Of a DNA stretch of 64,000 nucleotides, positions 3,965 through 55,543 are shown piece by piece. A program made the translations under genes and the position numbers. The first letter of the stretch is position 1. Each line of letters starts with the position of its first letter. This DNA is from an uncultured Spirochaetaceae bacterium (GTDB taxonomy: Bacteria > Spirochaetota > Spirochaetia > Sphaerochaetales > Sphaerochaetaceae), in contig CALXYL010000009.1 of NCBI GenBank assembly GCA_944392985.1, positions 1-64,000 on the forward strand. Reading direction: 5' to 3'. The notes under the pieces are model-generated. The model had not been told where the DNA came from. It saw only the letters and a list, made by a program, of their open reading frames with translations, and made no database searches.

Positions 3965-3972
3965 AGCCCACC

Positions 3973-4002
3973 TTGTGCAATGAGATGCCTTTCTGCTATA
4001 GT
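3973..4002 (+). promoter_or_regulatory. Promoter of the queuosine-precursor transporter gene
   Basis: TTGTGC, an 18-nt spacer, then TATAGT preceded by TGC (extended -10). The -10 ends 9 nt before the ATG at 4012 and no Shine-Dalgarno sequence lies between, so the mRNA leader would be 0-3 nt. Confidence 0.6.
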
Positions 4003-4011
4003 GCAGCCACT

Positions 4012-5482: not shown

Positions 5483-6994
5483 ATGCCTTCGGAAAATAAT
5501 GCAAATGGTGCAGTAATCCATGAAAAGGGAAAGAAGAACGGGAAAGGCAAGCATAGGAAGAGCCTAGGATGGATCATCGGAGTGGTGGTCCTCATCCTCA
5601 TCTCCGCCACCTTCATCCTTCCTACCACAGTATTCAGCTCTACGCCGAAGATCAGGTTCGGCAGCTATAATGGCAAGGATATCGTCCTTGAAGCGTCGTA
5701 TGACAACTACTTCTTCAATCAGCTGAACACGCTTTCCGCTGCATACCAGATGAATGCCCAGAATATGATGCAGATCTATTATCAGGCATTCTATCAGACT
5801 GTCCTCCAGACAGCGCTGCAGGAAATGGCGGATGAAGCAGGCATCTCCGTATCGAACAGGATGCTCAGCCAGGGCCTCATGCAGAGCGGTGCCTACCGCG
5901 CAGAGGATGGATCCTTCGACCTTGAGACATACAATGCCGCCTCCACTGTCGACAAGGACTACCTCATGGATCAGATCAGGGCGAACATCCCTTCTCAGAT
6001 GGTGTACCAGGATCTCACGTCCGTAAAGACATCGAATGCAGAGATGGAGTTTGTCTCCTCCCTCAGCAGCACACCTCGCACCTTCCAGTACATCACCGTT
6101 GACTACAGCAGCTATCCTGATGAGGAAGCCGTGGCATTCGTCAACGCTGACCCCGCGCCATTCACTGCAATGGAGCTTTCAGTGATCACGCTTCCAAGCG
6201 AGAGCGAAGCGGCGGAGGCAGCTCTAAGGATCCAGAATGGTGAAGCCACGTTCGAGGAAACAGCGGCGGAGAGCTCAACGGATTCCTATGCATCAGGAAA
6301 TGGCAGCATGGGCTCAGTCATGTACCACAACCTCGCCTCCATCCTCGTTGACAGTGCAGAGGCAGACACGGTATTCGCCACAGCTGAAGGCTCACTGACA
6401 GAGCCTATACAGGGCTACTCCGGCTGGATGGTATTCCGTGCCGATTCAGTTCCGGCCCTTGCAGACCTGTCCGATGCAGATGTGCTTGATGACGTAAAGC
6501 GCTATATCTCCGCAAACGACAGCGAGACGATGGATATCTTCCTCTCCGCGGAAGCCGATGCGATCTATGCGGAAGCTGCTGTTGATTTCGAGGGTGCAGC
6601 GGATGCACACGGACTTGCCATCACGGAAGTTGGAGCATCCTCCTACAACCCCGCCTATTCATCATTCATCCTTGACTTCGCCGGCAACGATCCGGAGGGA
6701 CTTCTCTACAACGCCGCTTCATCTGATCCCGACTTCTACAGCAGTCTCTTCACAGCAGAAGAAGGCACAGTGATGGCTCCTGAGTCGACAGGCACATCAT
6801 ACATCATCGCCCGCACCGGGGCAGAAGCAACGCCGAACCAGACGATGCTCTCCTACCTCAACATGATGTACCCATCATATGCACCGATTGTCGCAGGACA
6901 GGATATAGAGCAGTCGATACTCTCCTCGGAGAGCTTTGAGGACAACTTCCTCACGACCTACTTCTCCAAGATCATGGGCGTATCGGCACAGTAA
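5483..6994 (+). CDS. Membrane-anchored SurA/PpiD-like peptidyl-prolyl isomerase or chaperone
   Basis: A 503-residue protein with a basic N-terminus, one transmembrane anchor (about residues 29-48) and a large extracytoplasmic part. The region after the anchor (about residues 60-190), rich in Gln, Met and Tyr with a long helical pattern and ending in a QIRANIPSQMVYQDL-like segment, resembles the SurA N-terminal chaperone domain. A degenerate parvulin-like stretch follows (about residues 220-330, with ESEAAEAALRIQNGEATFEETAAESS resembling the domain start), so catalytic activity is uncertain. It probably helps fold exported or outer-membrane proteins. A Shine-Dalgarno-like AAGAGG precedes the ATG and a strong terminator follows the gene. 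Confidence 0.65.
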   Translation: MPSENNANGAVIHEKGKKNGKGKHRKSLGWIIGVVVLILISATFILPTTVFSSTPKIRFGSYNGKDIVLEASYDNYFFNQLNTLSAAYQMNAQNMMQIYYQAFYQTVLQTALQEMADEAGISVSNRMLSQGLMQSGAYRAEDGSFDLETYNAASTVDKDYLMDQIRANIPSQMVYQDLTSVKTSNAEMEFVSSLSSTPRTFQYITVDYSSYPDEEAVAFVNADPAPFTAMELSVITLPSESEAAEAALRIQNGEATFEETAAESSTDSYASGNGSMGSVMYHNLASILVDSAEADTVFATAEGSLTEPIQGYSGWMVFRADSVPALADLSDADVLDDVKRYISANDSETMDIFLSAEADAIYAEAAVDFEGAADAHGLAITEVGASSYNPAYSSFILDFAGNDPEGLLYNAASSDPDFYSSLFTAEEGTVMAPESTGTSYIIARTGAEATPNQTMLSYLNMMYPSYAPIVAGQDIEQSILSSESFEDNFLTTYFSKIMGVSAQ

Positions 6995-7016
6995 GGCTGA
7001 ACCATCGTCCAGAAAC

Positions 7017-7057
7017 GAAGCGGCATCCGAAGAAAGGTGCCGCTTCTTCTTTTTTTC
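7017..7057 (+). terminator. Intrinsic terminator after the SurA-like gene
   Basis: Nine-base-pair stem GAAGCGGCA/TGCCGCTTC (7017-7025 with 7038-7046) followed by a T-rich run. It ends directly at the extended -10 of the next gene. Confidence 0.85.
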
Positions 7058-7066
7058 TGCTACACT
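7058..7066 (+). promoter_or_regulatory. Extended -10 element of the DUF2804 gene
   Basis: TGC-TACACT ends exactly 6 nt before the ATG at 7073, so the transcription start would coincide with the start codon. No Shine-Dalgarno sequence is present. The -35 region lies in the terminator T-run and is weak. Confidence 0.5.
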
Positions 7067-7072
7067 TCCTAC

Positions 7073-8068
7073 ATGCTGCAGCCTATGAAAGAGATAAACG
7101 AACAGAGCCATGATGAATGGAGCCCATGCCCCATCTGGATATACAGACGGAAGGACAGCGGCAGATCCATAGTCCAGCGCGGCTGTGATGCCTATATGTT
7201 CACGGACATGGAGAAGAAGATCGCAGTCAGGGCTGTTTCCGCAGATCTCGGCATCGCATCCATCAATTCGATAACAGTCATAGACCTCAGCCGTGGTGCA
7301 GCCGCATCAGAGCGCTCAGTCAGCCGTCACAGGTACACAGACATGCATCTGCCGGAGTCTCCTGTGGATGACAGCAGCTTCTCCTTCTCCTGCGCTTCCA
7401 TGACACTCGCCGCATTCAAGCGCGGCAACAGGCGCAGACTGCTGATAACAGCACCTTTCCTTCATCTTCCTTCAGGGGAAGAGGGCTTCAAAGCTGATAT
7501 CACAATGACAGCGGAAGAGGAAGATCAGTGCAGTGCGTCTCTTCTCCATCCAGAAGGAAGCCGCGGCTTTTCATATCGTGTGGACTGCCTTCCACTCCGC
7601 GCTGAAGGCACGCTCTTCATCGGCGACACGATCTCCGGGCTATCAGAAGGAAGCCTCGCCTCGATGAGCTGGTACAGGAGCAGCGGAACATTCCGCTCGC
7701 AGCAGATCCTGCGCGCCTCATCATTTGGATGCACAGATGGGAGAAGATGGGGATTCTCCGTATCAAGCGGGAACGCAAAGGAGAATGCCATCATCATCGA
7801 CGGGAAGGCATACCAGATCGGGGAATGCATCTTCAGCCAGCATGACGGGAAGTGGACCATAAAGTCCGCAGACGGCCGCTTTGAAGCGATGATGGAAGCC
7901 TCTGCGCTTGAGCATACACATGGGGATATGCGGCTGCTCAAAGGTGAGTGCATCGATGCGTTCGGGCTCTTCTCAGGATACTGCAGAATCCCTGATGGCA
8001 ACACTCTCGGGTTCAGCGGCGCCTATGGCTTTGCCAGAATGCTCCGCGGCCAGGCACTCCATGGCTGA
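7073..8068 (+). CDS. DUF2804-family protein
   Basis: A 331-residue soluble protein with no signal peptide. The central Trp/Arg-rich SWYRSSGTFRSQQ segment, the NAIIIDGKAYQIG stretch and the C-terminal FGLFSGYCRIPDGNTLGFSGAYGFARM segment match my memory of DUF2804, a family of unknown function with a lipocalin-like or two-domain beta fold. It stands alone between a terminator and the AI-2E-type exporter 30 bp downstream, which may be co-transcribed. The ATG at 7073 is chosen because a predicted -10 lies just upstream; the open frame starts 12 codons earlier inside the terminator. Function unknown. Confidence 0.6.
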   Translation: MLQPMKEINEQSHDEWSPCPIWIYRRKDSGRSIVQRGCDAYMFTDMEKKIAVRAVSADLGIASINSITVIDLSRGAAASERSVSRHRYTDMHLPESPVDDSSFSFSCASMTLAAFKRGNRRRLLITAPFLHLPSGEEGFKADITMTAEEEDQCSASLLHPEGSRGFSYRVDCLPLRAEGTLFIGDTISGLSEGSLASMSWYRSSGTFRSQQILRASSFGCTDGRRWGFSVSSGNAKENAIIIDGKAYQIGECIFSQHDGKWTIKSADGRFEAMMEASALEHTHGDMRLLKGECIDAFGLFSGYCRIPDGNTLGFSGAYGFARMLRGQALHG

Positions 8069-8098
8069 TCATCCCCTCACTGGAAAAGGATCGATTGA

Positions 8099-9262
8099 AT
8101 GAAAAGAAAGGATTTCCTCACATATCTCCTCCTCGGCATCCTGCTTGCGGCAGCGGTGACATTCATATGGAACTACAGAACAACGCTCCCGTGGCTGAAG
8201 TCAAACTTCATATCGGGCATGCTGCCTCTCGCCGGAGGATTGGCGATAGGCTTCATCATGAACATCCCCGCATCATTTCTTGAAAGGAAGCTGGCAAAGC
8301 ATGGAACGGGCATCATAAAGCGCCACAGCAGGAGCATCGCCCTTCTTGTCTCGATCCTCATACTGATATTGCTGGCGGCATTCGTCATAATGCTCGTGCT
8401 CCCGGAACTCGTCAACGCGATCATACTGTTCGTTGCCTCTCTGAGGGACTTTGCCGAGAACAGCCATTTCTGGAATGACCTGGACATCGCCAGCATCCCG
8501 CTTCTGAGCACATTCTTCGACAGCGCAGACTCTGGAATCCTTACCCTGGCAGATGCCATTGAGCAGAAGATAAGCGAATACAGCCCGTCGATCATCTCCT
8601 TCACACTGTCAACGATACAGGCGATGGTATCCGATCTCGTCCTCTTCTTCGTATCCTTCGTATTCGCCGTCTACTTCATATCGAACAAGGAAAGGCTTCA
8701 GAGGCATATCAGGAAAGTGCTCTCGCTCATACTGAAGGCACCTACCCTCTCATATCTCGAGCATGCAGCGCATATCAGCTTCACGGCATTCTCCCGCTTC
8801 ATCACAGCCCAGGTCACGGAAGCCCTGATCATCGGCTCCCTCTGCTTTGTGGGAATGCTCGTCATAGGCTTCCCATATGCGATCACAATCGGTGTCCTGA
8901 CAGGCGTCATGGCGCTCATCCCGATATACGGAGCGATAATAGGCGCTCTCATCGGTGCCTTCATGATAGCAGTCGTCACACCTTGGCAAGGACTCTTCTT
9001 CCTGGTATTCATCATCGTCCTGCAGCAGCTTGAGGGGAACTTCATCTACCCGCGCGTCGTGGGAACGACCACAGGTGTTCCCTCAATCTACGTATTCACA
9101 TCCGTCACCATCGGAGGAGCGCTCTTCGGCATCCTGGGGATGCTTCTCTCAGTCCCTGTATTCTCCATCGCCTACACGCTCATAAAGGAAATTGCCGACA
9201 AGCGTGACGGGACTTCCCGAAAAGAAGATGACTCTATTGACACAGATGGGAAGAAAGTGTAG
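8099..9262 (+). CDS. AI-2E/PerM-family membrane transporter
   Basis: A 387-residue membrane protein with about eight hydrophobic segments. The arrangement is typical of the AI-2E (TqsA/PerM) family: two N-terminal helices with GGLAIGFIMNIP, a soluble helical stretch in the middle, and the conserved C-terminal block LIPIYGAIIGALIG ... QQLEGNFIYPRVVG ... GVPSIYVFTSVTIGGALFGILGMLLSVPV. Members export autoinducer-2 or act as sodium/proton antiporters, so the substrate is open. AAGGA stands 8 nt before the ATG. The 3' end contains the promoter of the downstream tRNA-Asn gene. Confidence 0.85.
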   Translation: MKRKDFLTYLLLGILLAAAVTFIWNYRTTLPWLKSNFISGMLPLAGGLAIGFIMNIPASFLERKLAKHGTGIIKRHSRSIALLVSILILILLAAFVIMLVLPELVNAIILFVASLRDFAENSHFWNDLDIASIPLLSTFFDSADSGILTLADAIEQKISEYSPSIISFTLSTIQAMVSDLVLFFVSFVFAVYFISNKERLQRHIRKVLSLILKAPTLSYLEHAAHISFTAFSRFITAQVTEALIIGSLCFVGMLVIGFPYAITIGVLTGVMALIPIYGAIIGALIGAFMIAVVTPWQGLFFLVFIIVLQQLEGNFIYPRVVGTTTGVPSIYVFTSVTIGGALFGILGMLLSVPVFSIAYTLIKEIADKRDGTSRKEDDSIDTDGKKV

Positions 9263-9265
9263 ATT
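9237..9265 (+). promoter_or_regulatory. Promoter of tRNA-Asn
   Basis: TTGACA, 17-nt spacer, TAGATT; an excellent sigma-70-type match located in the last codons of the AI-2E exporter gene and running past its stop. Predicted start about 9272, 17 nt before the mature tRNA. Confidence 0.7.
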
Positions 9266-9288
9266 CCTATTTGTTCGAAAGAACGCAT

Positions 9289-9361
<73 letters not shown>

Positions 9362-9372
9362 CTAAGCATAAA

Positions 9373-9404
9373 GCCCTCATCCAATCGGATCGAGGGTTTT
9401 TCCT
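9373..9404 (+). terminator. Terminator of tRNA-Asn
   Basis: Stem CCCTC-ATCC / GGAT-C-GAGGG with one bulged base, followed by TTTTT at 9397-9401. Confidence 0.8.
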
Positions 9405-9448
9405 TTCCTCAATCCCTCCAGAAACAGGAAAATCACTGCAGGATGGTG

Positions 9449-9470
9449 GAAAAAGCCGCATTCCTGCGGC
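9449..9470 (-). terminator. Terminator of tRNA-Val
   Basis: Read on the minus strand: stem GCCGCA/TGCGGC with a short loop, followed by TTTTTCC. Confidence 0.75.
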
Positions 9471-9495
9471 CCCATCCTTTTGCATACATGATTTC

Positions 9496-9567
9496 TGGGC
9501 GCGAGCAGGATCGAACTGCTGACCCCTACCGTGTGAAGGTAATGCTCTCCCGCTGAGCTACGCGCCC
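9496..9567 (-). tRNA. tRNA-Val (CAC)
   Basis: A 72-nt cloverleaf on the minus strand: acceptor stem GGGCGCG/CGCGCCC, D arm GCTC/GAGC, anticodon loop TTCACAC with anticodon CAC, T loop TTCGATC, discriminator A, no encoded CCA. It converges on tRNA-Asn, each gene having its own terminator. Confidence 0.92.
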
Positions 9568-9600
9568 AAATATCAGGATCGATAAATCACTGACAAAGGG

Positions 9601-9629
9601 ATTATGCCTATAATGCGCGGTATTGTAAA
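9601..9629 (-). promoter_or_regulatory. Promoter of tRNA-Val
   Basis: On the minus strand TTTACA, 17-nt spacer, CATAAT. The predicted start near 9594 is about 27 nt upstream of the mature tRNA end. Confidence 0.6.
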
Positions 9630-9672
9630 GCCTCTGGAACGGAAATCCTGTAAACCATATCACTGGAGTCGA

Positions 9673-9701
9673 TTTACAAGCGATCATATTGATGATACTC
9701 T
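9673..9701 (+). promoter_or_regulatory. Promoter of the ECF transporter operon
   Basis: TTTACA, 17-nt spacer, TGA-TACTCT (extended -10), ending 7 nt before the ATG at 9709. No Shine-Dalgarno sequence follows, so the first gene is predicted to be leaderless. Confidence 0.6.
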
Positions 9702-9708
9702 CCTCTTC

Positions 9709-10449
9709 ATGGACAGCGCCCTGCAGATCGATGGATTATCGCTGAGCATCAGCGGACACATGATACTGGATAGCATATCCTTCTCCCTTGGGAAAGGCTC
9801 CTTTGCTGCGCTATGCGGTCTCAATGGCGCTGGCAAAAGCCAACTGCTCCGGTGCATGAAAGGACTGAGGAAGATAGAGAGCGGACGCATCCTGCTAAAC
9901 GGACGGGAAGCAGATGGAAAGGAACGGATGAGAAGGATAGCCCTGGTCTTTCAGGATGCCGCGCTGCAGGTTGTCGGACAGACTGTGGAGAAGGACATCG
10001 CATTCGGCCCTGCGAACATGGGACTGCAGGAGGATGAAGTCCGGGAACGCACAAGGAAGGCAATCGACCTCATGGGGCTGAACGGAAAGGAAAGGAGAAG
10101 GCCGCAGTCGCTTTCTGGAGGAGAGCTCAGGAAGTGTGCTATCGCGGGCATACTCGCGATGGAACCGGAAGTGATCCTCCTTGACGAGCCGTTCGCGAAC
10201 CTCGATTACCCTTCCACCCTCAGCGTGATACAGGCCCTGCTGAGGCTTCACAGCGAAGGCTACACGATCATCACAGTCACACACGAGGCGGAGCGATTCC
10301 TAGCACATACGGACACCTTGCTCATCATGGAAGGAGGAAGGATGGTCGTGCAGGGACGCTCAAGGGATGTGTACAGAACCCTTCCCGACCATGGAATCTA
10401 CCTCCCCGCGGATACAGCTTTCGAGGATCTCACATGGCTCAGGCAGTGA
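9709..10449 (+). CDS. ecfA: ECF transporter ATP-binding subunit
   Basis: An ABC ATPase of 246 residues of the energy-coupling-factor (CbiO/EcfA) type, powering vitamin or metal uptake. Motifs: Walker A GLNGAGKS (residue ~39), Q-loop FQDAALQ with the EcfA-typical Q-x-V-G-Q segment, signature LSGGELRK, Walker B VILLDEPFANLD and the H-loop VTHEAE. The frame extends 35 codons upstream, but the ATG at 9709 gives the normal length and sits just after a promoter. It overlaps the EcfT gene by 16 bp. Only one A subunit is present, so it may act as a homodimer. No S subunit is encoded here, so the substrate is unknown. Confidence 0.85.
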   Translation: MDSALQIDGLSLSISGHMILDSISFSLGKGSFAALCGLNGAGKSQLLRCMKGLRKIESGRILLNGREADGKERMRRIALVFQDAALQVVGQTVEKDIAFGPANMGLQEDEVRERTRKAIDLMGLNGKERRRPQSLSGGELRKCAIAGILAMEPEVILLDEPFANLDYPSTLSVIQALLRLHSEGYTIITVTHEAERFLAHTDTLLIMEGGRMVVQGRSRDVYRTLPDHGIYLPADTAFEDLTWLRQ

Positions 10450-40098: not shown

Positions 40099-41151
40099 TT
40101 ACACCTTCGTCCCCAGCTCTGACGCGATCCTCCTGAAACGACGCGCACCCTCATCTGCATCCCCGCTTATCCCGGGGATGCATGCTGATACGACCTGCAG
40201 CGGGAGGATGAATGCAAATGGATGGAGGTACTCCTTTCCCTGCGTATCGAGAGTGAGATGATGCCCCTCATAGGACGGGATGCCAGAAGAGATCGTGAAT
40301 ACGCTTCCTGAAGATCTGCTGTGCATTGAGGCTATCCTCTCGATCCGACCCCTCTCAGGGCATCCTGCCTCCGGAAGCAGATAGAAGCCTCCGACGCTCT
40401 CCGAAACCGAACAGAAGGCTCCATGGAGATACTCCTCCGCCTCAAATGCCGCAGCTGGCATAAGGATTGTCTCCATCATCTTCAGCGCGCCTTCAGCTGC
40501 AATAGGATAATCGATGCCCTGACCTACAACATACCTTACCGATGGAGAATCAAGCGCATCGGCGTTCTCTTCCACCCATCGCTCAGAGACAAGGATATTC
40601 CTCTCCGTGATGGAAGCCTGTGCTGAGAGCTCGTTGAGGATGTGCCTGCACTCTCCTTCGCTGATCCTCCCCATAGCCCTGGCTGCCGAGAGAGCAAGAA
40701 GATAAAGGATAGCCACTGTAGCTGTATAGCCCTTCGTCCTCGCACCAACGCTCTCCTCCCCGGCTGGCATGAGGATATGACCATCTGTATGGCTGCAAAG
40801 CGGACTGCTGCTGTCAGCAGTCACGGAGAATGAACGGCAGCTGCAGCGGTCAGCGGCTGCGATTGTGTTCATGGATGCCCCGCTCTGGGAGATGAAGAAA
40901 GCCAGTGACGATGGATGCGATGAGACATAGCGTGAAGAAAGGAAAAGATGCACGGGGATGCCGAGCATCCTCTCCATGAATGGAACAGCGGCATAGGAAG
41001 CGTTCCAGCTCGTTCCGCTCCCGATGAGATCAACAGATGAAATACCTTCACCGAATGCCTCTGAAAAAGGCGCGCAGAGATCCTTCCATCCTTCGACGGC
41101 GCCTGCGAGCACCATCCCCTGCTCCCGGATGCAGTCAATCATCCTGACCAT
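40099..41151 (-). CDS. SIS-domain phosphosugar isomerase/deaminase-like protein
   Basis: A 350-residue protein with two sugar-isomerase (SIS) domains as in the C-terminal half of GlmS and in AgaS or FrlB. First domain: DLIGSGTSWNASYA (phosphosugar loop) and FFISQSGASMNT; second: VVGQGIDYPIAAEGALKMMET with the GALK-x-x-E signature. GAGGAGG stands 5 nt before the ATG at 41151. Last gene of the nine-gene operon; it may deaminate or isomerise an amino-sugar phosphate made from the imported substrate. Confidence 0.8.
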   Translation of the reverse strand: MVRMIDCIREQGMVLAGAVEGWKDLCAPFSEAFGEGISSVDLIGSGTSWNASYAAVPFMERMLGIPVHLFLSSRYVSSHPSSLAFFISQSGASMNTIAAADRCSCRSFSVTADSSSPLCSHTDGHILMPAGEESVGARTKGYTATVAILYLLALSAARAMGRISEGECRHILNELSAQASITERNILVSERWVEENADALDSPSVRYVVGQGIDYPIAAEGALKMMETILMPAAAFEAEEYLHGAFCSVSESVGGFYLLPEAGCPERGRIERIASMHSRSSGSVFTISSGIPSYEGHHLTLDTQGKEYLHPFAFILPLQVVSACIPGISGDADEGARRFRRIASELGTKV

Positions 41152-41161
41152 GCTTGCCTCC

Positions 41162-41839
41162 TCAGGATACGGGCTCCTTGAGCCACATGTACTTCTCGGT
41201 GAAATGGAATTCAAGCGCCTTGATGTACGCCTCGAAATCCTTTCTCTCCAGCGCCTCGACTATGCGCGCGTGCTTGAGATACCTCACGTCAAGATCCTCA
41301 TCGATGAACTTGTCCTTGATGAATTTATTGCACGCCCATGTGGAATCAACGAAGGCGGAAAGGACGCTGTTGCCTATTCCGGAAAGAAGGACGTGATGGA
41401 ATTCCTCATCCAGGCTGTAGAAATCCTTGAATGGTTCTGCGGTCCTCATGCGCTCAGTAAGGTCCTTCAGCTTCTCAAGCCCCTCCGGCGACAGGGAATC
41501 AAAGCTCGCCCGAGCGAACCCGATCTCCAGCACCTGCCTCACCTGCATCGACTGCACGACAATGGCAGTCTCGCTTCCGAGGAGATTGAGGAACATGCAG
41601 CTTGAGATGAATCCGGAATCGAACTGGTTGATGATCTTGCCTACCCCGTTACGGGAGGAGACAACACCCATGATCTCCAAAGCCTTCGTAGCCTCTCTCA
41701 GCACGTTGCGGGAAACACCGAACATCCTCATCATCTCCATCTCTGATGGAAGCACATCCCCTGGCTGCAGGTTATTCTTTATGATGTAGTCCTTGATCTC
41801 ATTGTAGACGTACTGATACAGCTTCTGTCCCTTCTCCAT
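41162..41839 (-). CDS. GntR/FadR-family transcription regulator
   Basis: A 225-residue regulator: N-terminal winged helix with LPSEMEMMRMFGVSRNVLREATKAL (residues ~30-54, key residues PSE and SRNVLREA) and a C-terminal FCD ligand domain (EFHHVLL, HARIVEALERKDFEAY). NanR of E. coli belongs to this subfamily. It is encoded within the sialate-type operon and probably binds the TTGTACTACAA-like sites before the first gene, whose sequence fits the subfamily consensus TnGTnnnACnA. The effector could be a sialic acid or its breakdown product. Confidence 0.85.
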   Translation of the reverse strand: MEKGQKLYQYVYNEIKDYIIKNNLQPGDVLPSEMEMMRMFGVSRNVLREATKALEIMGVVSSRNGVGKIINQFDSGFISSCMFLNLLGSETAIVVQSMQVRQVLEIGFARASFDSLSPEGLEKLKDLTERMRTAEPFKDFYSLDEEFHHVLLSGIGNSVLSAFVDSTWACNKFIKDKFIDEDLDVRYLKHARIVEALERKDFEAYIKALEFHFTEKYMWLKEPVS

Positions 41840-41854: not shown

Positions 41855-42775
41855 TTATGGCGCCTCCGAGAAGAATGGGGCTGTCTGTTCCAGCTTCATC
41901 CTGAAATACGGAGCACGATCCGGATCAATAGAATCATAAGGGAAACGGACCTTGTTCGCAAATCCAGGAAGATAGCTGCCTACAACAGCCAGAAACTTAT
42001 CAATCACGAAATTCGCATACCCCTCTCCGGCTATGAGAGGATCGATATACGTCTCGAAGAAACACCTCAGATCCTTCTCCAATGCAAGAGCCGACACGAT
42101 ATCCTCCCTCATCATCCGGTACCATGCCTGAGAGGCCTTCGGCGCAAGGCATGCAACGTTGGAATATGATCCCGCGGCACCGTGCATGATACCAGTTGCA
42201 AGATGGTGGCCCGGAACGAATACAGGAACCCTCTCCATCACACCCTGCATCCCCCTATACCATGCCTCATCCCCATCGGCGACCTTGATGCTGCCAAGAG
42301 GTACCCGTTCTGAGATCATCAGCAAGGTCTCAGGAGAGAGCCGCCTCTTCGCATGAGGAGGATTGTAAAGGGTGATGGGGATACCTCCTGATACCGCACA
42401 GCACGCATCAAGGAAGGCAAGCGCTTCCCTATCCGTCACTGGAAACCAGTCAGGGAGTATCACCTGGATGGCTGACGGGGACAGGGAAGAGGCGAACCTG
42501 ATCCGGGAAAGGCTTGTCTGGGCCGACGGATGGCTGCACCCGATCTGGAACGGCATCCCCGCACTGGCACATTCAGATGCAAGGAGGACTGAGGTCACCC
42601 TGAATTCCTCCTCGCTGAGGGAGATGAACTCCCCTGCCGTCCCATTGGAATAGATACCGCTCACTCCAGCCGAGACGAGATACCGGATCTCCCTCACAAG
42701 CAGGGGATAATCAATGCTCTCATCGGCATTGAGGGGCAGCAGCAGAGTTGCCCAGTTCCCTTCTATCCTGCCCAT
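41855..42775 (-). CDS. Dihydrodipicolinate-synthase-family aldolase
   Basis: A 306-residue TIM-barrel class I aldolase or lyase. The Schiff-base lysine is in GSIKVADG (near residue 163) and the proton-relay tyrosine in TLYNPPH (near residue 135); NGTAGEFISLSEEE (near residue 44) is the family signature with an atypical NGTAGE in place of GTTGE. It is not a housekeeping DapA by context: it overlaps the start of its paralogue by 1 bp in a sugar-acid operon. Substrate unknown, likely a 2-keto acid such as a 2-keto-3-deoxy-sugar. Confidence 0.78.
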   Translation of the reverse strand: MGRIEGNWATLLLPLNADESIDYPLLVREIRYLVSAGVSGIYSNGTAGEFISLSEEEFRVTSVLLASECASAGMPFQIGCSHPSAQTSLSRIRFASSLSPSAIQVILPDWFPVTDREALAFLDACCAVSGGIPITLYNPPHAKRRLSPETLLMISERVPLGSIKVADGDEAWYRGMQGVMERVPVFVPGHHLATGIMHGAAGSYSNVACLAPKASQAWYRMMREDIVSALALEKDLRCFFETYIDPLIAGEGYANFVIDKFLAVVGSYLPGFANKVRFPYDSIDPDRAPYFRMKLEQTAPFFSEAP

Positions 42776-43695
42776 TATCTGCCAAGATACTTCATAGGCA
42801 CTTCAGGATGCTCCGCCTTCATCTTCCGGCAGAATGCCCTGATTTCATCCATCGTCGATGGATCCGGCATATGGAATGGACGCCTTGAATATCCTGCATC
42901 GAGGCCAGCTTCCGTCATAAGCGTCTTCATGATGGGGAAGAAATCCCACTGGACAAGATACTTTATGACTGTCGTGGCAGTCTTCTGGATCTCGAACGCG
43001 GCCTTGAAATCACCCTTGGAGGCAAGGCTGTAGATTGCCTTGAAGGTATCAGGCATCATGTTGTAGAACGATCCTATGATGCCATCAGCACCGGCAAGCA
43101 GCCCCTGTGTCGCCATCTCATCGCATCCGGAATAGATCATGAAATCCGGGCCAAGCTCCATCTTGAGCGCACACATGTCATCGTGATCACGGGCAGTGAA
43201 CTTCAGTCCCTTCACACCATCGATAGTCGCAAGACGGCGCACAAGGCCACTGTCCATCAATCCGGCAAGCGAGATATTGTAGACGATCATCGGTATACCC
43301 ACCGATGATGAGATGTCCCTGTAATATGAGTAGATATCATCGGAGGAGAAATGATAGTAGAACGGCGGCACGGATGAGATCGCATCAGCCCCGATTCTCT
43401 CCGCATGCTCCGCAAGCTCAATCGATTTCCTCGTTCCTATATCCCCGACATGGACGATGACCGGCACACGCCCCGCAGCAGTCCTTATGACCGCTTCGGC
43501 AAAGGCCTTGCGCTCCTCACCCGTCATCAGGAAGCCCTCTCCCGTGCTGCCTGTGATGTAAAGGCCGTCGACACCCTCCTTTATAAGGGCTTCAGTCAGC
43601 GCCTCCGCCCGCTTCAGGTCAACATCCTCATTCTCGTCGAATGTCGTGATCATTGCAGGAATGACGCCTTTCACCTTTCTGATTTCGATGCTCAT
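42775..43695 (-). CDS. nanA: N-acetylneuraminate-lyase-like aldolase
   Basis: A 306-residue class I aldolase of the DapA/NanA family. The signature GSTGEGFLMTGEERK (residues ~48-62) and the Schiff-base segment GLKFTARD (Lys near 167) with the tyrosine of IVYNISL match N-acetylneuraminate lyase, which splits sialic acid into ManNAc and pyruvate, better than DapA. It overlaps the ATPase gene upstream by 4 bp. Dpp-family transporters import sialic acid in Haemophilus ducreyi (SatABCD), which supports sialate as the operon substrate. NanE and NanK are not in the window. Confidence 0.68.
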   Translation of the reverse strand: MSIEIRKVKGVIPAMITTFDENEDVDLKRAEALTEALIKEGVDGLYITGSTGEGFLMTGEERKAFAEAVIRTAAGRVPVIVHVGDIGTRKSIELAEHAERIGADAISSVPPFYYHFSSDDIYSYYRDISSSVGIPMIVYNISLAGLMDSGLVRRLATIDGVKGLKFTARDHDDMCALKMELGPDFMIYSGCDEMATQGLLAGADGIIGSFYNMMPDTFKAIYSLASKGDFKAAFEIQKTATTVIKYLVQWDFFPIMKTLMTEAGLDAGYSRRPFHMPDPSTMDEIRAFCRKMKAEHPEVPMKYLGR

Positions 43696-44720
43696 GCATT
43701 GCCTCCTTTTCCCTCTATTTCCGCAAGGAATTCCTCTGCCCTATGGCAGCAGACATAATGCTCCTTTCCAGTCCCCTCCAGACGGCGGAGAACCGGGATT
43801 TCCGTCCTGCACCTGTCCTGGCAGAAGCTGCAGCGCGGATGGAACGGACATCCCGATGGAGGATTCACCGGACTCGGCACATCCCCCTGAAGCGGTATCC
43901 TCTTCCTCTTCTTCGTGATATCCGCGATCGGAATCGCTGAAAGAAGAGCCTTTGTATATGGATGTATCGTATCACGGAACAGCTCATCAGTCTCAGCGAG
44001 CTCAACGACCTTTCCCAGATACATGACGGCGATGCGGTCAGAGACATACTCGACAACGGAAAGATCATGCGTGATGAAGATATATGTCAGCGATCGCTCC
44101 TCCTGCAGCTCCTTCAGCAGCTTCAGCACCTGCGCCTGTATCGACACATCCAGCGCGGAGACTGCCTCATCGCAGATGATCAGCTCAGGGGAAACGGAAA
44201 GCGCCCTTGCAATCCCTATCCTCTGCCGCTGGCCACCTGAGAACTCGTTCGGATAGCGTGTCATATAGGATCGCGGAAGGTTCACTGCCTCAAGCAGATC
44301 CCCGACCAGCTTCTCCCTGTCCTTCCGGGATCTCACTCCGAACTTCCTCAGCGGATCGGAGAAGGAGCCGAAGATTGTGAATGCCGGATTAAGCGATGAA
44401 TATGGATCCTGGAACACGATCTGAAGCCGCTTGCGGACATCATCCAGTTCCTTGCCTTTCATCGTCATGAGATCGTGGACACCATCGGGGAATGAATACT
44501 CGACCTTGCCGGCTGTCGGATGGCAGAGCTGCAGGATCGACTTGCCTAGCGTCGTCTTGCCGCAGCCTGACTCCCCTACGATCCCGAGCGTCTCGCCGCG
44601 ATACACATCGAGGCTTACATCATCCACAGCCTTCACATAGCCGACCGTGCGCTTGAATACCCCCTTCTTCACAGGGAAGTACGTCTTAAGACCCTTTACG
44701 CTGAGAAGAACCTCGCTCAT
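43692..44720 (-). CDS. Dpp/Opp-type ABC ATPase (F subunit)
   Basis: A 342-residue ATPase of the peptide/nickel/opine uptake family. Walker [11 protein letters not shown]-loop [11 protein letters not shown], signature FSGGQRQR, Walker [13 protein letters not shown] and H-loop ITHDLS are present, and a C-terminal iron-sulphur-like cysteine cluster ([15 protein letters not shown]) is typical of OppF/DppF. The ATG at 44720 has AAGGAGG 6 nt upstream and overlaps the stop of the D-subunit gene. Confidence 0.9.
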
Positions 44721-45718
44721 CAGACCACCTCCTTGCAACGGCAGCACCGGACCATATGCGTTCCAGATACGATGACCTCCTCAGGCATAGCCAGCGAACA
44801 CTCAGGACACGAGAAGCCGCATCTCGGCTCGAACTGACAGCCATGGGGCCTGTCGAAGGGATCGGGAGTGGAACCCTTTATCGGCTGGAGATCCTGGTTG
44901 TGCCCCCGGCCAAGCACCGGTATCGAGGCAAGAAGCGCCTTTGTGTATGGATGCCGCGGGGAGCCAAGAACCTCTTCCGCCGTCCCGCTCTCAACGATGT
45001 TCCCCATATACATGACAGCCACATCATCAGCCATCTCAGCCACAACTCCCATATCATGGGTTATGAGCAGGATCGCCATGTCATTCTTCTCCTTCAGCTC
45101 AAGCATCAGGTCGAAGATCTGCGCCTGGATGGTGACATCAAGCGCTGTTGTAGGCTCATCTGCGATGAGTATCTTCGGCTTGCAGGCCATCGCCATCGCG
45201 ATCATCGCCCTCTGCCTCATTCCGCCTGAGAACTGATGCGGATACTCATGCACACGCTGCTCAGGAAGAGGAACTCCCATATCCTTCAGAAGCTCGACAG
45301 AGCGTGCCATCGCCTCCTTTTCGGAAATCCTCATATGGGCTCGCAGCATCTCAGAGATCTGGTATCCCACGGTGAATACAGGATTGAGTGCCGTCATCGG
45401 ATCCTGGAAGATCATAGCGATCTCCTCGCCACGGAGAGCCCTCATCTGGGAGGAGTTCTTCCCGAGCTTGTCAATCCGCACTTCCTCATCCCTGTACCTG
45501 TATGTGATCGAACCGCCTTCTATCCTGGAAAGCTCAGGAAGGAGCTGCATCACCGAAGATGCCGTGACGCTCTTTCCACAGCCGGACTCTCCGACAACGC
45601 AAAGCGTCTTTCCTTTCCTCAGGCTGAACGAGATGCCGCGCAGGACATTGTTGCAGCGCTGGTTCGTGTAGAAGCTGACATTGAGATCCTTTACTTCAAG
45701 AACTGTATCTTTTTCCAT
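44720..45718 (-). CDS. Dpp/Opp-type ABC ATPase (D subunit)
   Basis: A 332-residue ATPase of the same family. Walker A GESGCGKSV, Q-loop IFQDPMTALNP, signature FSGGMRQR, Walker B ILIADEPTTALD, H-loop ITHDMG and the C-terminal cysteine cluster (GCQFEPRCGFSCPEC) identify an OppD/DppD subunit. It starts 1 nt after the C-subunit permease stop. Confidence 0.9.
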   Translation of the reverse strand: MEKDTVLEVKDLNVSFYTNQRCNNVLRGISFSLRKGKTLCVVGESGCGKSVTASSVMQLLPELSRIEGGSITYRYRDEEVRIDKLGKNSSQMRALRGEEIAMIFQDPMTALNPVFTVGYQISEMLRAHMRISEKEAMARSVELLKDMGVPLPEQRVHEYPHQFSGGMRQRAMIAMAMACKPKILIADEPTTALDVTIQAQIFDLMLELKEKNDMAILLITHDMGVVAEMADDVAVMYMGNIVESGTAEEVLGSPRHPYTKALLASIPVLGRGHNQDLQPIKGSTPDPFDRPHGCQFEPRCGFSCPECSLAMPEEVIVSGTHMVRCCRCKEVV

Positions 45719-45719
45719 A

Positions 45720-46634
45720 TCAGCCTACCTGTGTCGGATCCGCCGCATCCCGGAGTCCATCGCCCATGAAATTTATAGCGAGAACGAATACCGTTATCAC
45801 TATACCGACCGGAAGCCAGGTCCACCATGCGCTTCTGAGTATGGTGAGATCCTGCGCGATATTCAGGATATTCCCCCATGTCGCCTGCTCCAGCGGAACA
45901 CCAAGGCCAAGGAACGACAGGGATGCTTCCTGAAGGATGAACATCGCTGTAGACAGCGTGATATTCACAAACGTCGGGCCGATGGCATTGGGAAGCATGT
46001 GCTTGAATGCGATCACATACCTCGGGATGCCGAACGCCTTCAGCGCCTGGATGTACTCCTCTTCCCTGATCGAAAGCATCTGGGAGCGCGCCATGCGGTA
46101 CATGCTCGGCCAGCCTGTCAGTATGAATATGAAGAAGAGGTTCCACAGGCTCTGACCAACAATCGTCACGAGAAGGGACACGAGGATGATCTGCGGAAAG
46201 CTGATCATGACCTCGCTTATCTTCATGATGACGGAATCAAGCCATCCTCCACGATAACCTGCATATGTTCCCAGCGAAACACCGATGAGCGCCGATCCAA
46301 GGGCGGATCCTACGCCGATGAATATCGAGATGCGCCCGCCATACAGGATGCGCGCCCACACATCCCGCCCGATCTGATCGGTTCCAAGGATATGCTCCCG
46401 GCTCGGCGGAGAGAGCCTGTTGCGAAGATCGATCGCATTCGGATCATACTGCGTGAAAAGGAATGCGAATACGGAGAGGAAAACCATGACGATGAAGAGG
46501 AATGCACCGATCAGCGCCAGTTTGTTGGAAGTGAGCTTGCGCAGCGTGCGGCTCCTGTTGCTTGTCTCAAGCAGCCCGGCCTTCTCCTTCCTCTGCAGCT
46601 CATCCATCTTCCTGTTGAGTGACTTACTATTCAT
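45720..46634 (-). CDS. Dpp/Opp-type ABC permease (C subunit)
   Basis: A 304-residue permease with a cytoplasmic N-terminus (about residues 1-35), then six transmembrane segments and the conserved HILGTDQIGRDVWARILYGGR signature of DppC/OppC (around residue 80; its core is GTDQIGRDV). The EAA loop is QALKAFGIPRYVIAFKHMLP. The ATG at 46634 is favoured by GAGGGG 8 nt upstream. Confidence 0.9.
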   Translation of the reverse strand: MNSKSLNRKMDELQRKEKAGLLETSNRSRTLRKLTSNKLALIGAFLFIVMVFLSVFAFLFTQYDPNAIDLRNRLSPPSREHILGTDQIGRDVWARILYGGRISIFIGVGSALGSALIGVSLGTYAGYRGGWLDSVIMKISEVMISFPQIILVSLLVTIVGQSLWNLFFIFILTGWPSMYRMARSQMLSIREEEYIQALKAFGIPRYVIAFKHMLPNAIGPTFVNITLSTAMFILQEASLSFLGLGVPLEQATWGNILNIAQDLTILRSAWWTWLPVGIVITVFVLAINFMGDGLRDAADPTQVG

Positions 46635-46644
46635 TGCACACCCC

Positions 46645-47604
46645 TCATGAGAGCTTGACACGCGGATCAAGGAGCGCGGTGACTATATCGATGAGAATAC
46701 TCGCGATAAGGACAATCAACACACTGAAGAACGCGACCATCATGATGACTGGCGTGTTCTGCGTACGCACCGCAGCCACGAACATCTGCCCCACACCAGG
46801 CCACTGGAACACCTGCTCGATGACAACAGCGCCACCGATAAGCATCGGGAGGCGGAAGCCTATGAGAACGACAACCGGAGAAAGCGCTACGCGGAGACCA
46901 TGCAGGAGATTGACCCTCCACTCCGGAAGTCCCTTGCTCCTTGCTGTCTTTATGAAGTCCTTGCCAAGCGAATCAAGCATGCTGGCCCTGGAATAGCGCA
47001 TGACACCTGCTGTCATCGATAGCCCAAGCACGACTGCCGGGAGTATCAGGTGATCAAGACGCTGGAAGAAAGCCTCATGGCCAGGCGTCATGCGTCCTCC
47101 CACCGGAAGCCATCCGAGGTTGAAAACGAATACTATTATCATGATCAGTCCGAAGAGGAACTGGGGAATTGCGACACCAATCATGCCTGCCACTGTCAGA
47201 ATGTTATCGCCGATACTGCCCTTCTTCAGCGCTGAGACAACGCCGAGGAGCGTACCGAATAGTGTTGAGATGAAAAGAGCGGCAACAGAAAGCTCCAGTG
47301 TTGCCGGAAGCGTATTGGCAAGAAGCGTGGAGACGGGGACACCGCTCTGGATGCTGTAACCGAAATCCCCATGGAGGATCCCGACAAGCCAGTTGAAGAA
47401 CCTTATGAGAAATGGATCATTCAGTCCAAGCTCCTCACGGAGTATCTCAAGCTCCTGAGGATTCATCGTAGCCAAGGCGTCCGGCGGGAGAAGGAAATCC
47501 ACCGCATCACCTGGCATAAGCTCGATTCCCGCATAGATGAGAAAGCTGATGACAAGCATCATGGGAATCAGCAGAAGAACCTTCCTGATGATGAAATTAA
47601 CCAT
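46645..47604 (-). CDS. Dpp/Opp-type ABC permease (B subunit)
   Basis: A 319-residue permease of the DppB/OppB family: N-terminal helix, an extracytoplasmic loop with LGLNDPFLIRFFNWLVGILHGDFG, five more helices and the coupling loop ARSKGLPEWRVNLLHGLR. AGGAGG stands 4 nt before the ATG. Partner of the C subunit. Confidence 0.9.
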   Translation of the reverse strand: MVNFIIRKVLLLIPMMLVISFLIYAGIELMPGDAVDFLLPPDALATMNPQELEILREELGLNDPFLIRFFNWLVGILHGDFGYSIQSGVPVSTLLANTLPATLELSVAALFISTLFGTLLGVVSALKKGSIGDNILTVAGMIGVAIPQFLFGLIMIIVFVFNLGWLPVGGRMTPGHEAFFQRLDHLILPAVVLGLSMTAGVMRYSRASMLDSLGKDFIKTARSKGLPEWRVNLLHGLRVALSPVVVLIGFRLPMLIGGAVVIEQVFQWPGVGQMFVAAVRTQNTPVIMMVAFFSVLIVLIASILIDIVTALLDPRVKLS

Positions 47605-47625: not shown

Positions 47626-47657
47626 AGGAAAAGGAGCCAGCCGGGTGGCCGGCTCCT
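47626..47657 (-). terminator. Hairpin after the binding-protein gene of the nine-gene operon
   Basis: On the minus strand AGGAGCC(g)GCC / GGC(t)GGCTCCT followed by TTTTCC, between the binding-protein and B-subunit genes. Probably a partial terminator that favours the binding protein. Confidence 0.65.
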
Positions 47658-47670
47658 AGGGGATGCATCG

Positions 47671-49338
47671 TTACTTGATGTTAGCCGGGTGCGGAAACTC
47701 GTTGACGAAGAACAGCCTTGTGTAACGGATGTTGACCGGATGGACTGTCATATTGTCAAGAAGCTCGATGCCCTGCGTATCGGTAACGTTCTTGCTGAAT
47801 GCATAGTCGATCTGCCCGCTCTCAGCATTCTTGATGAGATTCGCATCATTCTCGTTGCTGGCGAACATGAAGATCCTCTGGATGTTTCCGGTACCGGTTC
47901 TGTAGTAGCCCTCATACCTGTCGAGGATCGCGTAGTTTCCAAGCACCGTCTCAGAGACCTTGAACGGACCTGTTCCGATTGGATGCTGCCAGAACTCATT
48001 CTGCTGGGCCGTGACAGGATTGACGCTGCCAAGGAGATGCTCAGGAAGGATCGGCCACTGGCTGAATGTCAGGAGCGCGTTCGGATCGATGCGCTCGAAT
48101 GTCACCGTCACGGTATTGCCATCGACTGTGACACCCTCAACGCTCTCCGCCGTTCCATCAGCATAGGCTGCTGCGCCCTTGATTGCCCTGAACGTGTTGA
48201 GTGCGACTGCATTGAGACCTGGGGACTTGAGGTAGAACTCAATCGTGAAGGTCACATCATCCGCTGTGAACGGCTCTCCATCATGCCATGTCACATCATC
48301 GCGGAGGTTGAATACGATCTGCATTCCATCGGGAGAGACCTCATAGCTCTCTGCGAGCATTCCACCAGTCGGATTGAGGGATGCATCCGCATTCACGAGC
48401 TTGTCGAAGAGGAATTCCTGATACGGGAACTGTCCCGGGTTGACGTTAGGAGCCTGATAGAACTCCATCGGTCCACAGTTCGTGTACATCATTCCATCGG
48501 GGGAATCAATCGTCCAGTCGAGGATGTTCTTCTCATAGGAATACTGATCGTTGCCGACTGCATTGCCTTTCATATCAAGGCGATCACTGGTGTAGACGAA
48601 TGCGATCTGATGGTAGAGAGGTATGACAAGCATGTTATCGCTGATGTACTTCTGGAGCTCCTTGAATGCCGCCTTCTGCACCTCTGTGTCCGCACTTGCC
48701 CTTGTTGCCTGTACAAGCTCGTCGAGCTTGGCGTCGTATGGTATCGAGGAGTTGTTTGTCGCTGTGCTCTCGAAGCGGTCATAGAACTCGCTCTCGGAAA
48801 GTGCCGCGATAGCCGCATATGCGATATCCCACTTCACCTCGGAAGGGCCATTGACCATATCAGCTGGAGGGATCCAGAGCTGGGAGGTTAGATCGCCTTC
48901 GAGCTTCCTGAATGATGATTTGACACCGACCGCTGCCCAATACTGCTGGATGATCGCCATCAGATCAACCGTCTGCTGATCAGAGTAGTAGTACACGACA
49001 TCAAGCGTGTAGTCCTTCGGCCACCCGGCTTCCTCAAGAAGCTGCTTGGCAAGCTCAGGGTTGTACTCATACTCATTCAGCCCATCAGCCAGCCAGTCCC
49101 CAGGAGAGGTCAGTGAAACCGCTGTCTGGGCCATTCCCTCGAAGAGGGTATCGACAATGGTGTCCATATCGATGGCATACCTGAGAGCCTGTCTGACGCG
49201 CACATCAGCAAGCGGAGTGCCCTTGCTGACCCACTCCGGCTCAGCAGCAGATGAAGCAGATGCCGCTTCCTGGCTTCCGCCTGCAAAGACGGAGACGCTG
49301 ATCAGAAGAACAAGAAGCAATGATAATAACTTCTTCAC
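47671..49338 (-). CDS. Solute-binding protein, circularly permuted SBP family 5
   Basis: A 555-residue exported binding protein starting with GTG (GGAGG 5 nt upstream); signal peptide at residues 1-19, mature end AGGSQEAAS. It feeds the Dpp/Opp-type transporter encoded next. The order of family 5 motifs is inverted. Residues 41-275 (PLADVRVRQALRYAID at 42-57, EYNPELAKQLLEEAGW, VVYYYSDQQTVDLMAIIQQYW, LVIPLYHQIAFVYTS) correspond to the second, normally C-terminal, lobe. Residues ~280-555 (FDKLV, MLAESYEVSPDG at 327-338, LRDDVTWHDGEPFTADDV at 345-362, PIGTGPFK at 453-460, LFFVNEFPHPANIK at the end) correspond to the normally N-terminal lobe, ending where PLADVRVRQAL would usually continue. One open frame covers both, so this reads as a circular permutation. 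Confidence 0.82.
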   Translation of the reverse strand: MKKLLSLLLVLLISVSVFAGGSQEAASASSAAEPEWVSKGTPLADVRVRQALRYAIDMDTIVDTLFEGMAQTAVSLTSPGDWLADGLNEYEYNPELAKQLLEEAGWPKDYTLDVVYYYSDQQTVDLMAIIQQYWAAVGVKSSFRKLEGDLTSQLWIPPADMVNGPSEVKWDIAYAAIAALSESEFYDRFESTATNNSSIPYDAKLDELVQATRASADTEVQKAAFKELQKYISDNMLVIPLYHQIAFVYTSDRLDMKGNAVGNDQYSYEKNILDWTIDSPDGMMYTNCGPMEFYQAPNVNPGQFPYQEFLFDKLVNADASLNPTGGMLAESYEVSPDGMQIVFNLRDDVTWHDGEPFTADDVTFTIEFYLKSPGLNAVALNTFRAIKGAAAYADGTAESVEGVTVDGNTVTVTFERIDPNALLTFSQWPILPEHLLGSVNPVTAQQNEFWQHPIGTGPFKVSETVLGNYAILDRYEGYYRTGTGNIQRIFMFASNENDANLIKNAESGQIDYAFSKNVTDTQGIELLDNMTVHPVNIRYTRLFFVNEFPHPANIK

Positions 49339-49365
49339 TCTTTCCTCCTTTTTTGCGTGTTTAGT

Positions 49366-53507: not shown

Positions 53508-54956
53508 GTGGATATCATCAGGCAGCTGAAGGAAGTCTCATTGTCCGTGCTCCCCATCGGCTTCTTCGCTCTCGTGCTCTCAGCGGCCACGGGGGTGATG
53601 AGCGGTGCGGAGGCTATGCGCTTCATCATCTCATGCCTGCTTGTGATCATCGGCCTGACGATCTTCCTCACAGGAGTGGAGACAGGCATCACCCCGCTTG
53701 GAAGCAGAATAGGCGCAACCCTTACGAAAAGCCGCTCACTCATCATCATGCTTCTAGCGGCAGTGCTGCTGGGATTCATCATCACGATGCCTGAGCCTGA
53801 TGTGCAGGTCCTTGCTTCGGAAGTGCATCAGGTCAGTCCCGCCATTCCGGTAAGGACGCTCATCTATTCAATCGCCATCGGTGTCGGGCTCTTCTTCGCA
53901 ATCTCCCTTGCCCGTACCGTGCTGAAATGGCCAATGAAGCTCGTGTTCCTGATCTGCTATCTCCTCATCTTCGCTGTTGCGTCCTTCACAGACGGATTCT
54001 TCGTCTCCATCGCCTTCGATTCAGGAGGTGCAACCACGGGGCCGCTCTCCGTCCCATTTGTGATGGCGCTCGGCATGGGTGTGGCGGCGATGCAGAAGCA
54101 TGATGCGGAATCCGAGTTCGGTTATGTCGCCCTCTCCTCCATCGGGCCGGTGCTCTTCGTCCTCATCCTGGGAATCATCTTCGGCAGTGCCCCCGAGACA
54201 GGCGCGGTGCTTGAGGAGGCAACCTACCCCGCATTCCTCAGCCTGCTGGGGGAGAAATCCAGGGAAGTCGGGATCTCGCTGCTTCCTCTTGCGGCGGTCT
54301 GCCTGCTGATGCAGATCCTCTTCATACGGATGCCGCGTACAGAGGCGATCAGGGAATTCTCCGGACTCTTCTATGCTTATATCGGGATCGTCATATTCTT
54401 CACCGGTGTGGAATACTCATTCTCGAACGTGGCGAGGGAACTCGGAAGCGCTCTTATCGGGATGAATCCGCTGCTTCTATACGCCGCAGGATTCATATTC
54501 GGCTTATGCGTGGTCCTTGCAGAGCCCGCCGTCATCGTCCTTACTGGGCAGGTCGAGGATGCCAGCAGCGGCAGGATACCTCGCTCTGCGATGCTCCTAG
54601 CGCTTGCACTTGGCGTAGGGCTTGCCGTTGTCATGGCGCTCATAAGGACGGTTCATTCCCTGTCCATCTGGACATTCCTGCTGCCCGGGTACGCGATCAT
54701 CATGCTTCTGATGATCAGGACACCGGGGCTGTTCTCAGCTATTGCATTCGATTCAGGAGGAGTGGCCACGGGGCCGATGAGCTCTGCATTCCTGCTGCCG
54801 CTTGCAATGGGGGCAGCGTCAGGTTCTGAAGGCGCGACGCTTGCGTCATCATTCGGAATGATCGCGATGATTGCCATGATGCCGATACTCCTGATCGAGG
54901 TGCTTGGCATCATCTACCAGGCAAGAATGAGAAAAGCGGAAAGAGGTGGAAAATGA
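53508..54956 (+). CDS. DUF1538 membrane protein with internal duplication
   Basis: A 482-residue protein with about 12-14 transmembrane segments, starting with GTG (AGGAAGGA 8 nt upstream). It is two repeats of a DUF1538 unit: FLTGVETGITPLGSRIG (residues ~53-69) with IAFDSGGATTGPLSVPF (168-184), and FFTGVEYSFSNVARELG (297-313) with IAFDSGGVATGPMSSAF (412-428). The repeated D-S-G-G-x-x-T-G-P motif probably lines a transport path. The family is annotated as a putative transporter of unknown substrate. An extended -10 (TGATATACT) precedes it. It overlaps the PII gene by 4 bp, suggesting that the PII protein gates it. Confidence 0.82.
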   Translation: MDIIRQLKEVSLSVLPIGFFALVLSAATGVMSGAEAMRFIISCLLVIIGLTIFLTGVETGITPLGSRIGATLTKSRSLIIMLLAAVLLGFIITMPEPDVQVLASEVHQVSPAIPVRTLIYSIAIGVGLFFAISLARTVLKWPMKLVFLICYLLIFAVASFTDGFFVSIAFDSGGATTGPLSVPFVMALGMGVAAMQKHDAESEFGYVALSSIGPVLFVLILGIIFGSAPETGAVLEEATYPAFLSLLGEKSREVGISLLPLAAVCLLMQILFIRMPRTEAIREFSGLFYAYIGIVIFFTGVEYSFSNVARELGSALIGMNPLLLYAAGFIFGLCVVLAEPAVIVLTGQVEDASSGRIPRSAMLLALALGVGLAVVMALIRTVHSLSIWTFLLPGYAIIMLLMIRTPGLFSAIAFDSGGVATGPMSSAFLLPLAMGAASGSEGATLASSFGMIAMIAMMPILLIEVLGIIYQARMRKAERGGK

Positions 54957-55543
54957 GTGCATCGGCATTGATTGCAATCGTCAGGAAAGGCCAGGTGAAG
55001 GATGTCATGGCAGCAGCAAGGGAAGCTGGGGCACCAGGTGGCACTGTCTGCCTTGCAAGGGGAACTGCTTCCAGCACGATCCTCGCCGCTCTGGGCCTTG
55101 GGGACACACGGCAGGAAGTCCTTACAAGCCTGATAAAGAAGGACAAGGCGGATGCCGTACTCAACGCGGTGCATCAGGCAAAGGCAAAGGGCATCGCAAT
55201 CGTCATTGAGTCAGATATGGAGGACAGTATGAACTGCAGGTGGGTGCTTGTGGAAGTGATCTGCGAGGAAGGATACAGCGAGGATATCATGGCGGCGGCA
55301 AGGAAGGCGGGAGCCGGCGGCGGCACTGTGATCAACGCGCACGGGACAAGCACAGAGGATGATGTGAAGTTCTTCGGCGCCCCGCTTATCCCCGAGAAGG
55401 AGATACTCCTGATCGTACTGCCAAAAGATAAGGCAGACGCTGTCACTGAAGCAATCAGCAGCATGGAAATCATGAAGAAGAGAGGCGGCGGGATAATCTT
55501 CACGCTGCCCGTTAGCAGCTTCGTGAATCTGGGGAAGGAGTGA
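54953..55543 (+). CDS. Tandem PII-family regulatory protein
   Basis: A 196-residue protein made of two PII-like ferredoxin-fold domains (residues ~1-95 and ~96-196). Each has a beta strand opening (ALIAIVRKGQ; WVLVEVICEEG), the helix AAREAGAPGGTV / AARKAGAGGGTV, a T-loop (36-53; 130-148) and a core strand ending in LPKDKAD in copy 2 and IKKDKAD in copy 1. Classical PII proteins are single-domain trimers of 112 residues with Tyr51 in the T-loop; none is present here. The T-loops differ (GTASSTILAALG versus GTSTEDDVKFFG), so the halves may have different ligands or partners. It starts inside the DUF1538 stop (ATGA). Confidence 0.85.
   Translation: MSASALIAIVRKGQVKDVMAAAREAGAPGGTVCLARGTASSTILAALGLGDTRQEVLTSLIKKDKADAVLNAVHQAKAKGIAIVIESDMEDSMNCRWVLVEVICEEGYSEDIMAAARKAGAGGGTVINAHGTSTEDDVKFFGAPLIPEKEILLIVLPKDKADAVTEAISSMEIMKKRGGGIIFTLPVSSFVNLGKE

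Follow-up and report, generated by a model that had tools for sequence, protein, structure and literature searches.

The binding-protein gene and its operon

The window, that is, the whole stretch of 64,000 nucleotides that was analysed, contains on its minus strand a gene encoding a circularly permuted family 5 (cluster C) solute-binding protein, with its two halves in swapped order (47671..49338). The gene is a single uninterrupted frame running from 49338 to 47671, as had been read in an earlier note on this DNA, and encodes 555 amino acids. Its GTG start is preceded, at a distance of five bases, by a Shine-Dalgarno-like site GGAGG (49344..49348, minus strand) identified in the sequence. 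Residues 1-19 (49282..49338), ending in VSVFA and followed by GGSQE, form a candidate signal peptide, called by inspection of the sequence rather than by a dedicated predictor; hydrophobic segments are likewise placed in the homologues. Residues 42-275 (48514..49215) correspond to the ancestral second half of the protein, consisting of domain III and the C-terminal strand of domain I, which is now N-terminal. They are followed by the linker TIDSPDG (residues 276-282, 48493..48513), which in the alignment with normal-order members seals the ancestral C- and N-termini. The ancestral first half is now C-terminal (residues 283-555, 47674..48492); it comprises domains I and II and extends to the first hinge strand.

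All downstream genes are on the same strand. The binding-protein gene and dppB are separated by a stable stem-loop with a T tail (47632..47657, minus strand; z -3.5 for the intergenic region). This is a candidate attenuator or mRNA-stabilising element that could provide for differential expression of the binding protein and dppB. Then follow genes encoding DppB/OppB-type (46645..47604) and DppC/OppC-type (45720..46670) permeases and DppD/OppD-type (44720..45718) and DppF/OppF-type (43692..44747) ATPases. DppB, DppD and DppF were assigned by profile matches; the best profile for DppC is Opp4C, with a score of 322 bits, below the cut-off of 350. The order binding protein-B-C-D-F is retained across phyla, in permuted and normal-order loci alike. 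The protein carries an export signal, as judged by inspection, and the genes for its Dpp/Opp-type permeases and ATPases lie directly downstream. In the genome carrying the homologue L062 (G147), dppD and dppF lie about 1 kb from dppC (L116, 6684-7667, minus-strand count), unlike the other examined operons.

The next gene encodes a NanA-like lyase of the DHDPS superfamily, a conserved partner in these operons (42775..43695). It overlaps by one base with the gene of a second, divergent DHDPS-superfamily protein (41855..42775; 55 bits to the Pfam model), the two genes together occupying 41855-43695. Being very divergent, the second protein may have changed its activity or lost it. Further downstream are genes for a GntR/FCD (FadR-type) regulator (41162..41839) and an SIS-domain protein similar to the isomerase half of GlmS (40099..41214), the latter being a possible end of the operon. 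Elsewhere in the window (53508-55543), a gene for a 482-aa membrane protein with an internal repeat is followed by that for a 196-aa protein whose halves resemble each other. By eye, this pair looks like a transporter and a sensor.

Motif order and profile matches

The order of conserved motifs is swapped relative to Dpp/Opp-type proteins, and the motifs occupy the positions at which the earlier note had reported them. PLADVRVRQAL, with which the second half begins in an ordinary family 5 protein, is found from residue 42, past the signal peptide. The first-half motifs occur late in the chain: MLAESYEVSPDG starts at residue 327, WHDGEPFTADDV at residue 351, and PIGTGPFK at residue 453. The C-terminal end of the protein is RLFFVNEFPHPANIK-555.

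The only Pfam family identified in the protein is SBP_bac_5 (224 bits against a gathering score of 32.4). It is represented by two partial stretches in swapped order, exactly as had been predicted for such a search; the best stretch aligns residues 327-541 with profile positions 5-202. A single full-length match in the canonical order, the outcome that would contradict a permutation, is absent, as the native chain has no in-order match. Similarly, phmmer produced swapped two-piece matches to DppA, NikA, Lmo0135, 8upi and other proteins in the PDB. In the case of 8upi, residues 309-511 align with positions 42-239, and residues 41-147 with positions 281-386.

The sequence was then rotated in silico at residues 42/283, and only after this rotation does it follow the canonical N- to C-terminal order of SBP_bac_5: residues 45-381 form one in-order match to profile positions 5-327, and the score is 237 bits compared to 224 bits for the native protein. 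The two-piece matches to PDB proteins fuse into single ones, with the scores changing from 94.9 to 108.6 bits for Lmo0135, from 106 to 110 bits for 8upi, and from 86 to 94 bits for 1dpe.

By profile and predicted fold the protein is a member of SBP_bac_5. It is not an equivalog of DppA, Opp4A or NikA; its NCBIfam scores are far below the respective cut-offs (Opp4A 183/650, DppA 91/1005, NikA 108/393). Membership in cluster Bc, that is, similarity to TpMglB-2, was considered and rejected: the protein does not have the type I / cluster B fold, its only Pfam family is SBP_bac_5, and the listed fold matches belong to cluster C. At the place aligned with the DppA/OppA residue that holds the amino group of the peptide, no Asp was found in two alignments, which conflict with each other and are locally poor.

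Predicted structure

The AlphaFold2 model of the permuted protein, constructed from an alignment of 36 family sequences, has a mean pLDDT of 90.1 and a pTM of 0.86, with block means of pLDDT of 95 and 91 in the linker region. It has the three-domain fold of cluster C. Foldseek, which aligns structures in chain order, matched this model to cluster C structures from the PDB over approximately 215-305 columns with TM 0.30-0.40, each match covering about half of the chain. None of the best 50 matches listed spans the permuted chain from end to end. For the model of the normal-order Clostridia protein L051 (pLDDT 76.8), matches to these families span 527-590 columns, and TM to the target reaches 0.85. 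Half-chain matches for the permuted protein and full-length matches for L051 are what circular permutation predicts, and the structure prediction, which the earlier note had proposed as a check, agrees with its reading.

Given the assignment of domains from the OppA fold, the long strands that make up the hinge between the lobes are the C-terminal one at 530-545 and that at 238-251. A two-strand hinge has been described in SatA (PMC11364026).

Homologues with the permuted order

One scan of species-representative genomes produced 45 loci. Intact permuted homologues, 42-72% identical to the protein along the full length, were found in 39 of them. The hosts include Sphaerochaeta, one of the groups in which the earlier note had proposed to look for the same order, and other spirochaetes, a KSB3 bacterium, Devosia, Rhodobacteraceae and other proteobacteria, as well as the Lachnospiraceae isolate Porcincola and Breznakiella homolactica, in whose complete chromosome the gene is at locus L022. 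Two more permuted members, L062 and L064, come from genomes of the same class as the window. All these proteins except L037 have a hydrophobic signal-like segment before the N-PLSDVRVRQA start. The family is under purifying selection, with dN/dS of 0.03-0.08 between the tested pairs of close homologues, and invariant residues are distributed across both halves.

Two Devosia loci are damaged. In L037 (Devosia rhodophyticola, 5913-7533) the signal peptide and the mature part are in separate frames because of a frameshift, whereas L050 (D. algicola) has frameshifts throughout. In these strains the gene may be decaying, or the frameshifts may be sequencing errors. A search of plasmids with the Devosia member as a query gave only matches below 60% identity. 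Those listed, from a set with 2153 more, are in two or three pieces, and no close permuted homologue is evident among them.

These data bear on two explanations in which there is no functional permuted protein. One possibility is that a normal gene was rearranged in assembly or binning: the genome is a draft of 39 contigs, and the gene is present in only 1 of 48 genomes of the genus. However, 39 intact homologues sequenced in independent projects have this order too, among them genes of isolates and that on the Breznakiella chromosome. Thus misassembly, which the earlier note had named as fatal to its reading, is rejected, and we regard an artefact as practically excluded. The other possibility is a pseudogene or a non-functional remnant, as could be suspected from the frameshifted Devosia genes. 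On the other hand, in the window the frame is intact and the ribosome-binding site is strong, the operon is conserved, dN/dS between homologues is low, and both halves retain invariant residues, so that loss of function is very improbable.

Normal-order sisters

Thirteen proteins from Clostridia (L051 from Oscillospiraceae, L088, and L092-L102) have the canonical order. They have lipoprotein-type signals. L051 is 45-61% identical to the permuted members in the second half and 39-48% identical in the first half. In the normal-order proteins the segment YTRLFYLNKFDRKDGTPSPLADVRVRQA is continuous, and it is here that the chain of the permuted proteins begins and ends; the alignment places the new termini within approximately 15 residues around it. 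In the permuted proteins a linker, for example WTIDSPDGMMYTN or WTVEPDANGKVLYTN, connects the old ends. The operon of the normal-order proteins contains DppBCDF and the NanA-like gene, as in the permuted loci. With this matching operon, the sisters are a natural control for the permutation.

Thus the sequence, the predicted structure and the comparison with normal-order sisters agree in supporting circular permutation, as suggested in the earlier note. It is highly probable that the protein represents the OppA/DppA (SBP_bac_5, cluster C) fold in a naturally permuted form and serves the Dpp/Opp-type ABC importer encoded downstream.

Origin of the permutation

The chain would have been opened after the first hinge strand, where it passes from domain I to domain III. 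The old C-terminus would have been sealed to the old N-terminus via a short linker, and a signal peptide placed before the new N-terminus. We infer that the permuted fold still closes on the ligand and docks to DppBC, and that one of the two connections between domains I and III at the hinge is no longer covalent at the domain III end. Permutation by duplication would be the simplest origin, after which the gene would have reached several phyla, probably to some extent through horizontal transfer. In the tree, a Lachnospiraceae gene is sister to the Sphaerochaetaceae group; together with the occurrence of the gene in a single genome of the window's genus, this makes horizontal transfer likely.

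Permutation by duplication is the standard model of circular permutation, the alternative being fission-fusion (PMC3320104). Tandem duplication followed by trimming, the route proposed in the earlier note, may account for the family, and no tandem-duplicate intermediate of it was found. The signal peptide may have been retained, as the note had it, or re-acquired; the two readings look alike. On contig 13 of the same genome (L060), three family 5 genes approximately 85% identical in DNA are situated beside one Dpp operon (3525-5141, 6896-8473, 8489-10066), interleaved with copies of a gene for a TPR-type protein. The last two of them follow each other head to tail, in the same frame and only 15 bases apart. 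This pair can illustrate how the raw material for permutation by duplication arises.

Two other histories have to be weighed against a single permutation by duplication. Fission-fusion or domain shuffling would have brought together two half-genes or two domains that differ in origin. Fission-fusion is an accepted route (PMC3320104) and agrees with the lack of a duplicate intermediate. However, no separate half-proteins were seen at any homologous locus, and both halves align lengthwise with the same normal-order sister; hence this origin is improbable. The other history is suggested by the trees, which have very distant outgroups without a single clean root. In the binding-protein tree, built from rotated sequences, the normal-order clade (100/100) is placed among the permuted members, next to L062 (94/86); further nesting has support of 91-93. 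The DppBCDF tree is likewise not rooted on the normal-order clade. Then the permuted ancestor would have spread over phyla and one lineage of Clostridia would have reverted to the normal order, or permutation would have occurred more than once at the same hinge site, making the permutation state labile. On the other hand, with such distant outgroups, a single permuted clade is not rejected by the AU test either for the binding protein (p = 0.08, 0.095, 0.114) or for DppBCDF (p = 0.06), and one event is the simplest reading. We therefore consider reversal or recurrence rather unlikely.

Candidate ligand

The NanA-like gene follows the transporter genes or diverges from them in most loci. The closest solved structures to its product are N-acetylneuraminate lyases (2e-54), and orthologues with at least 40% identity to it retain the motifs GSTGE, YN, GxKxT, DEM and GSxYN. 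The NCBIfam cut-off for N-acetylneuraminate lyase is passed by one orthologue, and the protein from the window is below it (252/281). Since most of these operons come with a NanA-like lyase, the ligand could, tentatively, be an ulosonic acid or another sugar-acid compound.

Several permuted loci, e.g. L021, L029 and L046, have no NanA-like gene within the sampled flanks or one that matches poorly. The neighbours in other lineages are genes for sulfatases, Gfo/Idh oxidoreductases, RraA-like proteins and an HpaI-like aldolase, which fits catabolism of carbohydrate acids. As the neighbouring genes vary and the NanA-like gene is patchy, the ligand may differ between lineages.

Comparison with known systems

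Of the receptors that serve ABC importers, those of cluster C rank with the most abundant and the best studied, and the two-strand hinge is central to their closure and to hand-over of the ligand. A permutant cut at the hinge, together with roughly half-identical normal-order sisters in the same type of operon, is a natural experiment. It asks whether both covalent connections at the hinge are needed, and whether the position of the N-terminal tether is needed. Such a family is easily overlooked, because annotation and structure searches that presuppose chain order detect no more than one half of the protein at a time.

The protein resembles DppA, OppA, NikZ, Lmo0135/CtaP and SatA, all of family 5/cluster C, in a Pfam score far above the cut-off, the predicted fold of each half, and the operon with a Dpp/Opp-type permease and ATPases. 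Unlike them, it has the rotated N- to C-terminal order, and it is below every NCBIfam equivalog cut-off. SatA (PDB 5z99), the binding protein of the sialic acid ABC transporter SatABCD, is matched by sequence as a protein of the same fold, and the operon considered here includes a NanA-like lyase. SatA has the normal order and is a weak relative, with 53 bits after rotation compared to 110 bits for the best PDB match. The Clostridia sister group is closer, with 39-61% identity per half for L051 and the same operon; it differs in the canonical order and the lipoprotein-type signals.

In the open-licence literature, no permutation of family 5, cluster C, OppA- or DppA-type proteins was found beyond that of TpMglB-2 from cluster B. 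TpMglB-2 (Tp0684) of Treponema pallidum, assigned to "Type Ic / Cluster Bc", is a natural circular permutant among ABC binding proteins, with a reported crystal structure and glucose binding, and has homologues in treponemes and Gram-positive bacteria (PMC4990184). Like the protein considered here, it is a naturally permuted binding protein of an ABC transporter and occurs in spirochaetes. Unlike it, TpMglB-2 belongs to cluster B/type I, the chain is cut at a different site, and a smaller portion of the chain has been relocated. Thus, as far as we could find, natural permutation in SBP_bac_5/cluster C has not been reported previously, being nevertheless of a known kind, and with the present family, natural permutation among binding proteins would reach beyond cluster B into cluster C.
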